Positions 27,167-35,313 of a DNA stretch of 64,000 nucleotides are shown here, one piece after another. Source of the stretch: an uncultured Erythrobacter sp. (lineage in GTDB: Bacteria > Pseudomonadota > Alphaproteobacteria > Sphingomonadales > Sphingomonadaceae). Where the stretch lies: NCBI GenBank assembly GCA_947488325.1, contig CANKYZ010000002.1, forward strand, positions 248,001-312,000, read 5' to 3'. The stretch's first letter is position 1. The number at the start of each line of letters is the position of its first letter. The translations under genes were made by a program, and so were the position numbers. The notes under the pieces are model-generated. The model ran no database searches. It had not been told where the DNA came from and saw nothing but the letters and a program-made list of their open reading frames with translations.

Positions 27167-27205
27167 AACCGGACGTCAGAAGCATTATTGGGCAGGAGAC
27201 AAACC

Positions 27206-28492
27206 TTGGCAGATAGGCACGCGAAACTCGAACTGGACGGCCAGACGCACGAATTTCCAGTTCTCGAGGGCAGTACCGGCCCAGATGTGGTCGACATTCG
27301 CAAGCTTTACGGGGCTACTGGCAAATTCACATTCGATCCTGGATATAAGTCTACAGCGAGCTGTGAAAGCGCGTTGACCTATATTGACGGCAACGAAGGT
27401 GTGTTGCTTCATCGCGGCTATCCGATTGGCCAGCTGGCGGAAAACTCCAGCTTTATGGAAACGTCTTATCTGCTGCTGAATGGCGAATTGCCGAGTGCGG
27501 ATGAGCTCGATGGCTTTAACGACACGATCACGCGGCACACCATGCTGCATGATCAATTGCGTCAATTTTATCAAGGCTTTCGCCGTGATGCGCACCCAAT
27601 GGCAATCATGTGCGGCGTGGTTGGTGCGCTGTCTGCATTCTATCATGACAGCACTGACATTTCTGATCCAGAACACCGAAAGATCAGTTCACATCGATTG
27701 ATCGCAAAAATGCCCACAATTGCCGCGTGGGCATATAAATATTCAATCGGCCAGCCATTCATGCAACCAGACAATTCGCTGAGCTATACCGGTAATTTCC
27801 TGCGCATGACATTTGGCGTGCCTGCAGAGGAATACGAAGTCCACCCTGCGATTGAAAAGGCTATGGACCGGATTTTCATCCTCCATGCCGATCATGAACA
27901 GAACGCTTCGACATCGACAGTGCGGCTCGCTGGTTCATCGGGCGCAAACCCATTCGCCTGTATTGCAGCGGGCATCGCCTGTCTTTGGGGCCCTGCGCAT
28001 GGCGGCGCGAATGAAGCAGCATTGAACATGCTTCAAGAAATTGGCACGCCCGATAGAATTCCGCATTATATTGAACGCGCTAAAGATAAGAGCGATCCGT
28101 TCCGTCTGATGGGTTTTGGCCACCGGGTTTATAAAAACTACGATCCGCGTGCGACGGTCATGCAGCAAACACTGAAAGAAGTGTTTGAGGCGTTGAAGGT
28201 TGATGACCCCGTGTTTGAGACTGCCCTACGGCTCGAAGAACTCGCGCTCAATGATGACTATTTCAAAGAAAAGAAGCTGTTCCCGAATGTAGATTTCTAT
28301 TCGGGAATTATCTTGTCATCGATCGGCTTCCCGACAACCATGTTCACCGCATTGTTTGCCCTTGCTCGCACAGTCGGTTGGGTTGCGCAATGGAACGAGA
28401 TGATTTCCGATCCTGGTCAAGTTATCGGGCGTCCGCGTCAACTTTATACCGGCCCGACACAGCGCGACTACGTGCCACTCGGCAACCGCTAA
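27206..28492 (+). CDS. gltA: Citrate synthase
   Basis: [80 protein letters not shown]; probable TTG start after aggaga. Confidence 0.97.
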
Positions 28493-28602: not shown

Positions 28603-30033
28603 CTATTGGAAAGCGGGAAGAGTCAGTCTGAATTCTGCGCCAGTCAGTTCTTGTGAGCTATCACGCGGCATCACTTCAAGATCGCCCTTCATAGCCAGCG
28701 CCAATCTACGCGAAATATAGAGGCCAAGTCCTGAACCGCTGTCTTTGCCGCCATCACTGTCGCGGCCAAGGCGTTCAAACTTCTCGAAAATTCGCTTTGC
28801 TTGCTCGGGGTCAACACCAGGACCCTGATCCATCACGCTTAACGTCATACGACCATCCACAGCCCTGCTTGCAGCAATCGTCACAGTGCTACCCTCGGGC
28901 GAATACGCAATGGCATTACCAATCAAATTGATTAGGATCTGGAGCACTCGGCGGAATTCACCGGCCGCAATTACCGGTTTTTCAGGATTTACGAGCCTTA
29001 CGGAGATATTGCGATCCTGCGATCGAACACCTAAAATACTCGCAGCGCGCCGTGCAGCATCGACCAAATCAATTTGTTCGTCAGCGGTCGAAAAGCCTGG
29101 CGCCTCGACGACTTCAAGATCTGCCAAATCATCAAGCATGCCTGACAAATGCTGCCCCGCAGAGGCGATGTTTCCGGCATATTCGCTGTATTCAGTTCGC
29201 AATGGCCCGGCGAGCCGCGTGCGAATGGTCTCTGCATTTGCGATAATGCGCGCGACGGGTTGACGCAGTGCGGGTGTAAGCGCGCTCCCTATCAATCGCG
29301 AATGGGCAGTTACATCAGACGTATCGGGCTGGATCTCAGGTGTGGCGAGCGGACTGTCAGCGACCAGTAACAGCTCAAATCCGCGCGGGGCGCCGCTTGC
29401 TGGACCCAGAGGTATCAAACGCACGCGCCATTCTCTATCCGAACCGGGAATGGTGCATTTTGCTCCATCAAGCAGGCGCCAATGCAGCGGCTGTTGGTGA
29501 GCGAGCCCTTTCAGTTGCAGATATTCGGTCCACACTTTGCTGGGGGCTGCAGCAACGTCATCCTGTATGCGAGCGGCATCCGCAGCCGTCGAAGTCAAAA
29601 ACTGTACCTGCTGCCGGGCATCTAGCCGCGCGCTTACTTCGGCAGCAGCGCGGTCAATAGCATCAATTCTGTCTGCATGCTCGTGCGAATTGGTTTGAGC
29701 TTGCGGAGTGCGCTGCCAGTTTTCGACAAGCACTTCACATCCGCCACCATGTTCTTCGCCGAGTGGATGGACACGAACAAAACCGCTTACAATCTCTTCT
29801 CCATCAAAGGCAGTGAATTCCCGCGCAATGCGCAGTCCCATCTCACGTCCTTGGCGCACCAGATCGAGCAGTTCAGGGACTGCCAAAGTGCCCGGCATTG
29901 CGCCGCCGCAACTTTCGTGCAGTTCTGCCAGCGGTTCGTCTGCGGTAAGCAGCCGATCACGGTCATCGGTTAGGCCGCGCGCTGCGAGGAGAGATTGTTG
30001 CCGGTTCACCGCTGCGTCCTCAAACCGCGCCAT
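28603..30033 (-). CDS. Histidine-kinase-like protein with intact HATPase domain but substituted H-box
   Basis: N-box LINLIGNAIAYSPEG, G1 DQGPGVDPEQAKRIFEKFER, G2 GSGLGLYISRRLA; H-box position reads TPALRQPVARII. Confidence 0.85.
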   Translation of the reverse strand: MARFEDAAVNRQQSLLAARGLTDDRDRLLTADEPLAELHESCGGAMPGTLAVPELLDLVRQGREMGLRIAREFTAFDGEEIVSGFVRVHPLGEEHGGGCEVLVENWQRTPQAQTNSHEHADRIDAIDRAAAEVSARLDARQQVQFLTSTAADAARIQDDVAAAPSKVWTEYLQLKGLAHQQPLHWRLLDGAKCTIPGSDREWRVRLIPLGPASGAPRGFELLLVADSPLATPEIQPDTSDVTAHSRLIGSALTPALRQPVARIIANAETIRTRLAGPLRTEYSEYAGNIASAGQHLSGMLDDLADLEVVEAPGFSTADEQIDLVDAARRAASILGVRSQDRNISVRLVNPEKPVIAAGEFRRVLQILINLIGNAIAYSPEGSTVTIAASRAVDGRMTLSVMDQGPGVDPEQAKRIFEKFERLGRDSDGGKDSGSGLGLYISRRLALAMKGDLEVMPRDSSQELTGAEFRLTLPAFQ

Positions 30034-30988
30034 GGGCATAGAATGCCGACACGTCAGATGCTGCAAGCAAATCTTGAGCCTTTCCTGGGGCCATGGCTGC
30101 GATGCCATCGGGGAGCATTTCAGCCGGTTCAACTAGCAGGAACTGCCGTTCAATGGCTTCTGCACTCAAACCCGCCGCACGCAGGCTCAATGCAAGTCGC
30201 GCCGCCTGACGCTCATGACAAGCAAGTATGGCAAGGTCTCTGGGTTGCCGGCTCAATGCCGCAATACCAGACGTAAACAGCGCTAATCCCGCGTGATCAA
30301 GTTCCAAAGCGGCCACCGCACCGCCGCGCATCGACGAAACGAGCCGTGCAAGCAGCCCTAATCGCCCAGCGCCTTCGTCATAGCCCACCTTCAACGCCTT
30401 GATAGCATTGGACATCGCCGCTGGTTCAATATCAAATTTGGATTTCTTAAAACGTTTCAACACGTTGACAAATAGCTGCGACGGCAATTCGCCTAATGGC
30501 AATTCCATACGCCGTTGGCTCTGTGTGAAGCGCGATTGCGCAGCAAGTGTGGCCATAGCGAGTTCTGCAATAGTAGGCTTGTCCGATGCGATCAGCTCTT
30601 GCAGCAATGGACTCAGCACCGGATCGACCGAGGAACGCTGCTCTAGCCGCTCCGTCAAATGCCCCTCCATCGCCAATGCGTAGAGGTGGTTGAGCACCTC
30701 GCCGTCACTCGACAGCGTGTCTGCAACTTGATCGATCGCCCCCTCATCAACCTTGTCGTGTTCTGTCGCGGACTGCCCGGCACTCAACAATTGCAGCGCA
30801 AGATCGTTCAACATTCCGCGAAGCCGTGCGACAATTGCGTCGCTAACCAGAGCGTGGCCGGAGCTTTCGAGCATATGAGAAATAACAGGCGCAACTCCGC
30901 TAAGCGCGCGATTGCCGCGCGCCAGCTCATCCTTAAGGATAGCTTCCACAGAAATGGTTTCTGTCCGGTCCATTGGCTCTTCGCCCAT
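30020..30988 (-). CDS. DUF2336-like protein
   Basis: Helical repeat-like alphaproteobacterial protein; overlaps the start of the histidine-kinase-like gene by 14 nt; family assignment tentative. Confidence 0.55.
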   Translation of the reverse strand: MGEEPMDRTETISVEAILKDELARGNRALSGVAPVISHMLESSGHALVSDAIVARLRGMLNDLALQLLSAGQSATEHDKVDEGAIDQVADTLSSDGEVLNHLYALAMEGHLTERLEQRSSVDPVLSPLLQELIASDKPTIAELAMATLAAQSRFTQSQRRMELPLGELPSQLFVNVLKRFKKSKFDIEPAAMSNAIKALKVGYDEGAGRLGLLARLVSSMRGGAVAALELDHAGLALFTSGIAALSRQPRDLAILACHERQAARLALSLRAAGLSAEAIERQFLLVEPAEMLPDGIAAMAPGKAQDLLAASDVSAFYAHGAV

Positions 30989-31039: not shown

Positions 31040-32257
31040 CTAGCGGCGTATCAGCAATTGCGCGAGGGCCGCGATGCTAAAGACCGCCATTGCCTCACCG
31101 ATAAAGCCCATGGCAGCCGCGCCAGCGAAAAAAGCAAGATGCAGCGACCGATCCTGCCAGAATGCAGCGGGTCTGTCGGCAACAACCCGCTCTGCATAAT
31201 GCGCGATACCAACCGTAAGAATGGGTAATGCGATTTGAGTGACAAGGTTTGGGGCCAGTCCGTAAACAAGGATCAAGATTAAAGTTGCAGCGAGATCGGT
31301 CCCAATATGGAGCGCATAGCTGAGCCGTCCACCACGCTTTGTCGACCAAAGTCGCTGCCTTAATCCTGCCCACGAGTTGCTTATCGCACCCACAAACGCG
31401 CCCGCAGCTGCTACACCAAGCCCGGCCGTGCCAAAGCCGAAACCTGCCAAAATTACCCCGAAAACCAGCAAAAAGGCTGCCGTCGCGGCGCTCACCTCAA
31501 CTCCGTTTTCCAGCCAGCGCGGGGTGATTTGCTTGACCAAAGATGCGGCCAACGCCCTACCCGGCCCCGTTAATGAGGGGATTGTAGAGCTTTGACTGAT
31601 CAGCGCCTTTTCCCGTTCGGCCAAGCCATCACCTGTCACAGCAAGCAACCAGCGATCACCTTCCAGAGCATCGCTGGAAAGCTCGCGGCATTCAAGCTGC
31701 GACTGCAAGCCTAAGCGCAATAACAGCGACATTGCATCGCTATCCGGCGGTAAATCCGCGATTTTATGTACCTGCCCCGCGCGCATCTCCGCAAAGCCAG
31801 CCCAGCGCCGTTCACGGTCGATCAGCTCGAAATCCTCGTGATGGTCACCTCCAAGCATGTGATTGGCCGGAATGGTTGCAATCCCCTTTTTCAACATGCC
31901 ATCTGCGCTCGTGAAACGAGCGATAACCTCGCGGTCGGCCAGTAAGCCATCCATCAGCATGATGAGCTCATCATCCGCGCGTATCAGGCTAGCGAGTTGC
32001 AAATTACTGCGAATCGCGTGAAATTCGCCGCCTGTTTGTTCAACCAATTGCTGCAGCGAAAGCACATTCTCCCCAGCATTTTCACAAAGGCAAATTATCC
32101 GCTCACACTTAAGGCCGCGCGCCAATTCAACCTGCCAAGCCAGCACACTGCGCCCGCCCAGCATCAGATCGGCGCGCAACTGCCCCGCATCTGTTCGTTT
32201 AACAGCAGAGATAAGAGCGGTGCGCAATTGAGGCCTCAGACCATGATCGCGGCACAA
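31040..32257 (-). CDS. Membrane protein with nucleotidyltransferase-like N-terminal region
   Basis: LMLGGRSVLAWQVELARGLKCERIICLCE resembles NTP-transferase fold; C-terminal half has several TM segments; start codon uncertain (TTG). Confidence 0.6.
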   Translation of the reverse strand: MCRDHGLRPQLRTALISAVKRTDAGQLRADLMLGGRSVLAWQVELARGLKCERIICLCENAGENVLSLQQLVEQTGGEFHAIRSNLQLASLIRADDELIMLMDGLLADREVIARFTSADGMLKKGIATIPANHMLGGDHHEDFELIDRERRWAGFAEMRAGQVHKIADLPPDSDAMSLLLRLGLQSQLECRELSSDALEGDRWLLAVTGDGLAEREKALISQSSTIPSLTGPGRALAASLVKQITPRWLENGVEVSAATAAFLLVFGVILAGFGFGTAGLGVAAAGAFVGAISNSWAGLRQRLWSTKRGGRLSYALHIGTDLAATLILILVYGLAPNLVTQIALPILTVGIAHYAERVVADRPAAFWQDRSLHLAFFAGAAAMGFIGEAMAVFSIAALAQLLIRR

Positions 32258-32345: not shown

Positions 32346-32663
32346 TTAGAAAGGCCCTGGAGCGTTTCCAGCAAACCGAGCTAGCACCGTTTCGATAGTA
32401 CGGATTGCTGCCGGTTCACCCGGAGCCGAGACAAGCGCATTTTCAGCTGCGAACAAGAGATCTTCGGCATGAAAGCTCGCGGCAAGGCCCTTCAGGCGCA
32501 TCGCCGCCACATTCCAATTACCATCGCAACGCGACCTTCTGAGCAAATCGAGTTGCTTCTCCGCGCTCTCTACGAACGCTCCACGCAACTCATGCAGTAG
32601 CGCCGGATCATCTCCAGCTGCTGCAGCTAGGGTCGCATCAAGGTCTCCGCTTTCATAGGCCAT
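32346..32663 (-). CDS. Hpt-domain-like protein lacking the phospho-acceptor His
   Basis: ELRGAFVESAEKQLDLLRRSRCDGNWNVAAMRLKGLAASFHAEDLLFAAENAL; Hpt consensus AHxLKG reads AMRLKG. Confidence 0.65.
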   Translation of the reverse strand: MAYESGDLDATLAAAAGDDPALLHELRGAFVESAEKQLDLLRRSRCDGNWNVAAMRLKGLAASFHAEDLLFAAENALVSAPGEPAAIRTIETVLARFAGNAPGPF

Positions 32664-32733
32664 GAAGCACTATATAGCGCAGACGGAGTTAATGCGGGGT
32701 TTATCCTCGCCTCGGCTGTGGTATCTAGGGTTT

Positions 32734-35313
32734 ATGGCAAGTGGACAACATATTAGGGCTGTAGGCCAAAGCGCCGCGCAAGATGCGCAATCAGAAACCG
32801 CTATTGACGGCGATGTTACCACCGATTCGATTGGCCAGGAACTCGCCGATGCCATTGAAATAGAAGAGGAACTTGACCTCTTGGGTTATGACATAGAAGA
32901 GAGTTTTGGATCTGCATCGCCACGTTTTGCATGGATTGCGCCAACACTTGCTATTTCGCTGATCGTAGCTTGGACCGCTCTTTATGGCTGGGCGATGCAA
33001 GACAGATTGCTCGCCGCTGCAAGCGCAAATCCGGCTGAATGGACCCGCTGGATCATTGATTGGTCCGTTCCGGTGTTGCTTGTTGGTGTCGGTTGGCTGC
33101 TTACAATGCGTCATTCCAAGGCCGAGGCACGGCGTTTCGCAGAGACCGCCGCCTTGCTATCGAAAGAAAGCAGCGAACTTGAAAACAGGCTGACTGTGGT
33201 CAACCGCGAACTTAGTCTAGCGCGTGAGTTTTTGAGTGCGCAATCTCTTGAGTTGGAATCGCTTGGCCGGATTGCGAGTGAACGACTTTCCACCCATGCC
33301 AGCGAATTGCAGCAACTGATCCATGACAATGGGGCGCAGGTCAATGCAATCGGCAGCGCCAGCGAAACCGCGTTAAGCAATATGACACGATTGCGCGATG
33401 ACCTTCCTGTGGTTGCCAATTCTGCGAAAGACGTATCCAACCAGGTTGGCAATGCTGGCCGTACCGCACAGGAGCAGGTGGAAAAACTGATAGGCGGTTT
33501 CAATCGCCTCAACCAATTCGGCAAGGCTAGCGAGGGTCAAGTCACATCATTCGATAAACGTGTGACTGAAACTCTGGACAGTTATGAGTTACATCTGACG
33601 CGCATTGGTGATGTCATCGGGTCGCGTCTTGAAGTCGTAAAGACACAAACGGGCGATTATCGCTCTGAAATCGAAGAAGCTGAAAGCCAGGCATTGAGCG
33701 CTCTCAAGGACCGTATGATGATGCTTCAAACCGAAGCAAAAGCAATTGCCAGCAAGCTTCGCGCAACCGAAGAAACGGCAGTCGAAAAATTGCATACTAC
33801 GCGGGAAAACTTCGAAACGGATCTTGTGAGTACCGGCGAAGCAATTGACCTCATGCATCAAAAAGCCATCACCGCATCTCAAAATCGAGTGAAAGAACTG
33901 CATGGATCGGCAACTCGTTTCGATGAAGAGCTCGGCGTGCGTGATCGCAAATTCCGAGAAGAGATCAGCCGACGCCAGGAAGAATTCGACACAAGAGAAG
34001 CACAAGCGAGCGAGATCTTGGCACAGCGCCTCGCCGATCTCGACGATGCATTGGCCGAAAGGCGCGAATCACAGACTCAAGAAACTGAGAAACTGGTGGC
34101 GCACAGTTCGGCAATCACTGAGCAACTCGATACTCTATCAACATTGATTGCTGAGATCGACGCACAAGGGGCAGCGACGCGCGAAGGCCTTTCGAGCGGC
34201 ATCGGTGAGCTTGGCAGTCAATTGGCAGCCAAGCGTGAGGCCCTGCGTGATACGGAAACACAGTTAGAAGGCTTGACCGAGGCAGGCATAAGGCTGCTCG
34301 AAATAATTCAATCTGGCGCGAAGCACAGCCGAAAGGACCTGCCGGAAGCTATTGAAACGGCATCTGGCGCTTTGAAATCAGTTGAACAGCGTGCCGCCGG
34401 AATTTCTGGCATGATGTTCACGACCAACAAGCAAGCCCTAGATCTCAGCAATTACTTGATCGAGACACAGTCTAAGATTGAGGGTGCAGACATATCAATC
34501 GAGGCACTTCAATCAAAACTGTCGGAACAATCCGAAGAAACACTGACAAAATTGAACGGTCTGCGCGGTGGGTTCTCGAAACTCACGGAGCAAAGCGAAG
34601 GCTTTGCCGGTGAAACGCAGGAACAATTGCGGGAAGCACTAAACACACTCGAACAAGCGACTACGTCAGCCTTTGCCGCACTAGAGGATGGTGCCCGCGA
34701 TAGAGTCGAAGCACTGGCAAGCACAATCTCAAAAGATGCCGTCGATGTTATCGAGCGATCACTGCGCAATGACACAGCAGAAACAGTTGGGAAGCTTGAG
34801 CAAGCGGCCTCGCATGCTGCGGGAGTTGGGCGTGAAGCAACAGTTCAGCTGCGTGATCAATTGGCCAAGGTCAACGAGCTCACCATCAATCTGGAACGAC
34901 GGATTGAGCGGGCTCGTGAGCTAACAGAAGAGCAGGTAGGCAACGATTTTGCGCGCCGAATGGCGCTCATTACAGACACGCTCAATTCCAATGCAATCGA
35001 CCTTACAGGCGCGCTTACAACGGATGTGACAGACACAGCTTGGGATGCATATCTGAAGGGCGACAGAGGCATCTTTACACGCCGTGCGGTTCGTCTTCTT
35101 GAAAATGGCGATGCCAAAGAAGTCGCCGAGCTCTATCAGAACGACGATGCCTTCAATGCGAATGTCAGTCGCTATATCCACGATTTCGAAGCCATGCTGC
35201 GCGCTATGCTCTCAACCCGTGACGGTAACGCACTAGGCGTCACAATCTTGGGTTCAGATATGGGCAAGCTCTACGTCGCACTGGCCCAATCGATTGAGCG
35301 TTTGCGCCAATAA
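32734..35313 (+). CDS. Large coiled-coil protein with two N-terminal TM segments (TipN-like polarity factor candidate)
   Basis: TMs IAPTLAISLIVAWTALYGWAM and WSVPVLLVGVGWLLTM, then about 600 aa predicted coiled coil, C-terminal AYLKGDRGIFTRRAVRLLENGDAKEVAELYQNDDAF...GSDMGKLYVALAQSIERL. Confidence 0.6.
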   Translation: MASGQHIRAVGQSAAQDAQSETAIDGDVTTDSIGQELADAIEIEEELDLLGYDIEESFGSASPRFAWIAPTLAISLIVAWTALYGWAMQDRLLAAASANPAEWTRWIIDWSVPVLLVGVGWLLTMRHSKAEARRFAETAALLSKESSELENRLTVVNRELSLAREFLSAQSLELESLGRIASERLSTHASELQQLIHDNGAQVNAIGSASETALSNMTRLRDDLPVVANSAKDVSNQVGNAGRTAQEQVEKLIGGFNRLNQFGKASEGQVTSFDKRVTETLDSYELHLTRIGDVIGSRLEVVKTQTGDYRSEIEEAESQALSALKDRMMMLQTEAKAIASKLRATEETAVEKLHTTRENFETDLVSTGEAIDLMHQKAITASQNRVKELHGSATRFDEELGVRDRKFREEISRRQEEFDTREAQASEILAQRLADLDDALAERRESQTQETEKLVAHSSAITEQLDTLSTLIAEIDAQGAATREGLSSGIGELGSQLAAKREALRDTETQLEGLTEAGIRLLEIIQSGAKHSRKDLPEAIETASGALKSVEQRAAGISGMMFTTNKQALDLSNYLIETQSKIEGADISIEALQSKLSEQSEETLTKLNGLRGGFSKLTEQSEGFAGETQEQLREALNTLEQATTSAFAALEDGARDRVEALASTISKDAVDVIERSLRNDTAETVGKLEQAASHAAGVGREATVQLRDQLAKVNELTINLERRIERARELTEEQVGNDFARRMALITDTLNSNAIDLTGALTTDVTDTAWDAYLKGDRGIFTRRAVRLLENGDAKEVAELYQNDDAFNANVSRYIHDFEAMLRAMLSTRDGNALGVTILGSDMGKLYVALAQSIERLRQ

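Follow-up and report, generated by a model that had tools for sequence, protein, structure and literature searches.

The window, a stretch of 64,000 nucleotides from an uncultured Erythrobacter sp., encodes a small protein that can be identified with high confidence as a pseudo-Hpt, that is, a protein of the Hpt family with Met55 in place of the phosphorylatable His. The fuller statement, that this protein descends from working Hpts and has been kept as a docking module in a DivL-like complex with a neighboring His-less kinase, is considered probable, at a distinctly lower level of confidence. The fold, the ancestry, the loss of the His, the conservation of the operon, the selection on the gene and the intact ATP-binding boxes of the kinase were all computed. 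The features discussed are listed in Table 1.

Table 1. Features of the pseudo-Hpt locus (positions in the window)
Feature	Position	Strand	Remarks
Pseudo-histidine kinase, HisKA-HATPase_c	28603..30132	(-)	Start possibly further downstream, at about 30033
ATP-binding boxes N, G1, F, G2 of the kinase	28717..28932	(-)	Intact
Pro287 codon replacing the H-box His	29272..29274	(-)	
Diverged DUF2336-type protein	30020..30988	(-)	Linked to DUF2336 through intermediates
Membrane protein related to NTP-transferase and CDP-alcohol phosphatidyltransferase proteins	31040..32257	(-)	CDP-OH signature lost
Pseudo-Hpt gene	32346..32663	(-)	105 aa
Lys58-Gly59, +3/+4 of the HxxKG motif	32487..32492	(-)	K 117/122, G 119/122
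Met55 codon at the phosphorylatable-His position	32499..32501	(-)	
RCDGNW motif	32514..32531	(-)	R, C, D, N and W invariant in 122/122 homologs of the Erythrobacter/Novosphingobium clade
Membrane coiled-coil protein, divergent, synteny anchor	32662..35313	(+)	883 aa; first in-frame ATG; true start may be ~32734

The reading frame, its sequence and the codons of the Hpt core (GCG GCG ATG CGC CTG AAG GGC, of which ATG CGC CTG AAG GGC encodes M55-R-L-K-G) are as described in the initial annotation, which had placed a Met at the Hpt His position. The product contains NVAAMRLKGLAASFHAEDLL. Relatives are present in 36 of 37 genomes of the genus and in 163 of 251 genomes of the family; the other 88 sampled family genomes (about one third) gave no match. 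The frame is open in most genomes. Since relatives are this widespread and the gene order is kept, the ORF is not a product of chance. Elsewhere in the 3.27 Mb genome only two Pfam-grade Hpt domains were identified, in ORFs of 814 and 1046 aa, and no His-bearing single-domain Hpt paralog was found there; the genome encodes 23 receiver domains. No report on the locus itself was found in the open-licence literature.

The AlphaFold2 model (64 sequences; pLDDT 87.8, pTM 0.78) has helices at residues 6-16, 20-43, 50-63, 67-78 and 84-97, with Met55 in helix 50-63 at the His position of aligned Hpts. In a Foldseek search of the PDB the top 11 matches were all Hpt proteins (prob up to 0.94, TM about 0.5-0.6), among them ShpA, HptB, YojN, a Shewanella Hpt, a Chaetomium Hpt and the CheA phosphotransferase domain. 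The best match is Caulobacter ShpA (2ooc; prob 0.94, TM 0.55), and the E-values of 0.5-2 (best 0.54) are by themselves not significant. Model and Foldseek matches, though at E > 0.1, agree on the Hpt helical-bundle fold. The window protein alone falls below the Pfam gathering score and has neither a Pfam nor an NCBIfam match, and a PDB sequence search with the profile gave chance matches only, with no Hpt. Six of 22 close homologs match Pfam Hpt weakly (best E 0.023), and a distant Ala-bearing ortholog scores 24.6 bits, exactly the Pfam Hpt cut-off.

His-bearing proteins (AHRLKG, AHKLKG etc.) are encoded at the corresponding position, divergently from the coiled-coil gene, in basal Sphingomonadaceae and in other families of the Sphingomonadales (loci L172, L173, L174, L199, L204, L206, L209, L210 and L228-L231). 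All those scanned exceed the Pfam Hpt cut-off, and alignment of a crown-only profile to these syntenic orthologs with hhalign gave prob 97.6 and E 2.6e-12, with Met over His. The L200 Hpt seems disrupted past AHRLK and is not used as evidence. Common descent with working Hpts is thus given by the synteny and by the profile match, and the latter, together with the model and the structure matches, bears out the Hpt fold proposed in the initial annotation. Because the distant syntenic orthologs keep the His, the pseudo-Hpt family descends from a working Hpt; because these orthologs lie outside the crown, the loss of the His is derived and not original. No crown ortholog has His at this site; a retained His, named in the initial annotation as a refuting observation, is seen in distant orthologs outside the crown.

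After the Hpt gene, the His-bearing loci usually encode a receiver protein and a second Hpt-domain protein. Searched for genome-wide, this receiver turned up in 10 of the 20 genomes, and no crown (His-less) genome is among these ten. It was absent from the genome of the window and from seven other crown genomes, and it was also not found in G146 and G065, both of which keep the His. From this distribution the loss of the receiver seems to precede or accompany that of the His. Loss of the receiver need not entail that of the His, since the lineages L172/L173 and L199 keep the His with no receiver found in their genomes. On a tree of the C-terminus of the coiled-coil protein, which is based on few columns and has many unresolved forks, a single change from His to non-His suffices, and the Hpt His was apparently lost once. 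The two missing histidines, of Hpt and kinase, had been taken for independent losses; this was not upheld, as a single history is compatible with both: a working Hpt at first stood beside a receiver, which was later lost. Necessarily independent accidents are not needed, one change of the Hpt His fitting the tree.

None of 122 distinct close homologs has a phosphorylatable His in the HxxKG motif: residue 55 is Met in 103, Leu in 15, Gln in 4 and His in none. In more distant family members the site is occupied by Ala, Trp, Tyr, Leu, Val, Glu, Phe, Arg or Met, and many of these proteins keep RLKGLAASFGA. The replacement of His is general in the crown, but Met is not its fixed substitute (Leu, Gln and others occur). 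A requirement for Met55 itself was rejected, as the site varies among non-His residues. R45, C46, D47, N49, W50, R56 and F64 are invariant in the 122 sequences, and the invariant patch sits just ahead of the helix that bears the former active site.

The His-less kinase to which the initial annotation had linked the protein is real; it carries Pro287 for His and lies on the same strand about 2.2 kb downstream of the pseudo-Hpt. Its H box reads TPALRQPV in place of SHELRTPL. All 75 crown kinases have Pro at the His position, farther relatives another non-His residue (A/R/S/T), and boxes N, G1, F and G2 show no variation among 74 kinases. Lacking the H-box His and keeping the ATP-binding boxes, the protein is a pseudo-histidine kinase, and judged by these motifs it looks still able to bind ATP. 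The basal-relative kinases of L172, L173 and L200 keep SHELRTPL, and Sphingomonas-type intermediate kinases match the L200 kinase over nearly their own full length. Among the NCBIfam matches listed there are other kinases only, all below the cut-off. Some genomes with no detected pseudo-Hpt gene keep the pseudo-kinase, so the pseudo-Hpt is not indispensable to it. DivL, a His-less kinase, does not phosphorylate a receiver but reads the receiver's phosphorylated form (PMC4211667). The neighboring kinase resembles DivL in the missing His and the kept ATP-binding boxes, and differs from it in having Pro (A/R/S/T in relatives) instead of Tyr.

Synteny was followed in 80 fetched loci (Erythrobacter, Altererythrobacter, Novosphingobium, Tsuneonella and others). 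The order RNase J-like, DUF1467, coiled-coil (-), hpt, NTP-like membrane protein, DUF, kinase and citrate synthase (-), with signs relative to hpt, is kept, the exceptions being contig ends and a few missing genes. The membrane-protein gene links to proteins that carry a CDP-alcohol phosphatidyltransferase domain; the signature of this domain was scored by its DGxxAR core, which is gone in the crown products. The 31040-32257 product is the third operon member that looks catalytically dead. At the position of the DUF gene a basal relative has a DUF2336 gene; no paper naming DUF2336 was found in the open-licence literature. The coiled-coil protein has a conserved C-terminal domain, detected in 46 of the 115 genomes that were sampled throughout the Alphaproteobacteria; outside the order, only one of the 19 loci inspected (L246) has a divergent Hpt next to the coiled-coil gene. 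In build it resembles TipN, a large polar coiled-coil protein with membrane helices. A similar build is also seen in the large polar coiled-coil proteins with membrane helices RgsE/GPR (PMC7327166). Both likenesses are offered as leads only.

For the pseudo-Hpt itself we infer docking, a partner and an output. Having no acceptor, it lacks the means to pass phosphate on in the known way, and it is best read as a docking or scaffold module, incapable of phosphotransfer, that works alongside the DivL-like pseudo-kinase. The loss of the acceptor His would date to the common ancestor of most Sphingomonadaceae and would have followed or accompanied that of the adjoining response regulator; thereafter the Hpt would have been retained as a binding module. 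The Lys-Gly of the Hpt motif is part of the receiver contact in known Hpts. Docking would probably use the surface by which Hpts hold receivers (the helices around residue 55 and Lys58-Gly59), with a receiver or the neighboring His-less kinase as the target, and would alter availability or assembly with no phosphate passed. Pseudo-Hpt and kinase may together form a DivL-like regulatory complex near the divergently encoded membrane coiled-coil protein. Docking without transfer is the simplest reading of the kept fold, of Lys58-Gly59 and of the invariant patch, and the scaffold role advanced in the initial annotation may fairly be drawn from the sequences. A wider proposal is possible but doubtful: a whole phosphorelay (kinase, Hpt and receiver) would have become a phosphate-free complex in one family, with the receiver and both histidines lost and new invariant surfaces gained, acting by binding and ATP-dependent changes of shape, perhaps with a polar coiled-coil landmark.

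The same conservation could point to a purely structural subunit whose partner would be the coiled-coil protein, the pseudo-kinase or the DUF2336-type protein, but at no time a receiver. The kept operon and synteny in the fetched loci, the lack of a response regulator in the operon, the disappearance of the ancestral receiver from the crown genomes tested and the invariant RCD-NW patch all agree with such a subunit, which is nevertheless rather unlikely: Lys58-Gly59, the part of the motif linked to receiver docking, is retained, and any of the 23 receiver domains of the genome could be bound.

Pairwise dN/dS values (Nei-Gojobori; medians of pairs with dS 0.2-1.2) were determined for the genes of the locus. 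The median for hpt is 0.288 (301 pairs), compared with 0.394 for the kinase, 0.491 for the coiled-coil, 0.514 for the DUF and 0.597 for the NTP gene; the flanking citrate synthase and RNase J-like genes have medians of 0.115 and 0.195. The hpt gene is under purifying selection and is more constrained than its operon partners; it is kept by selection and is not decaying. A decaying relic of an obsolete phosphorelay, which the failure to find the gene in many crown genomes and the lost transferase signature of the adjoining membrane protein might suggest, is very improbable in view of this ratio (0.29), of motifs invariant in 122 distinct sequences, of frames open in most genomes and of the invariant ATP boxes of the kinase.

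A relay still working through His65 or Cys46 as a replacement acceptor is scarcely more than conceivable. His65 is present in 116 and Cys46 in all of the 122 close homologs. Residue 65, however, falls in the turn that joins helix 50-63 of the model to helix 67-78, a place taken by Gly in canonical Hpts; it is Gln in three, Asn in two and Asp in one of these homologs; distant His-less homologs have Gly at 65 and mostly no Cys46, and the sole nearby kinase lacks a His of its own. That an unrelated helical protein resembles the motif by coincidence is hardly credible and already largely refuted, for despite the missing Pfam and NCBIfam matches and the lack of Hpts among the PDB sequence matches, the syntenic orthologs belong to the true Hpts, intermediates connect the family with Pfam Hpt, and the structure search ranks Hpts first.

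The pseudo-Hpt shares with Hpts (PF01627) such as ShpA the predicted helical-bundle fold, the AxxLKGxA motif and the small single-domain build; it differs in that the crown orthologs all lack the acceptor His and that the original response regulator is gone. Arabidopsis AHP6 is a plant pseudo-phosphotransfer protein, an Hpt domain without the His that is thought to bind partners and not to pass phosphate. Pseudo-Hpts are also mentioned in plant papers of the open-licence literature. The window protein shares with it the His-less Hpt domain, but is bacterial, of separate origin and encoded in an operon with a His-less kinase. In a survey of bacteria 0.9% of Hpt domains (90 of 10,312) lack the His (PMC12632262). 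The kind of loss is the same; the surveyed domains are counted among recognised Hpts, whereas the window family is lineage-wide and conserved and mostly falls below the Pfam threshold. Here the loss of the His spans the lineage, is conserved under selection, goes together with a His-less kinase and can be traced to living relatives with the His and mostly the receiver. States before and after the loss are thus available for asking what two-component proteins do without phosphate.

Some further observations concern the neighborhood. At L172 (2949-6256) inositol-phosphate synthase-, nucleotidyltransferase- and Wzi-like genes, recognized by inspection, lie between the transferase and DUF2336 genes; they are absent from the same place in the window. 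The citrate synthase gene (27188-28492) adjoins the pseudo-kinase in nearly all relatives, possibly by coincidence. A citrate synthase of Caulobacter controls the cell cycle without enzyme activity, as was found in a tipN mutant background (PMC7083601). In two basal relatives, read by eye, the DUF2336 gene (at L200 the kinase gene too) follows apparent flagellar hook-associated proteins (L200:5625-12501 and L223:9493-12500), hinting at an ancestral link to motility.
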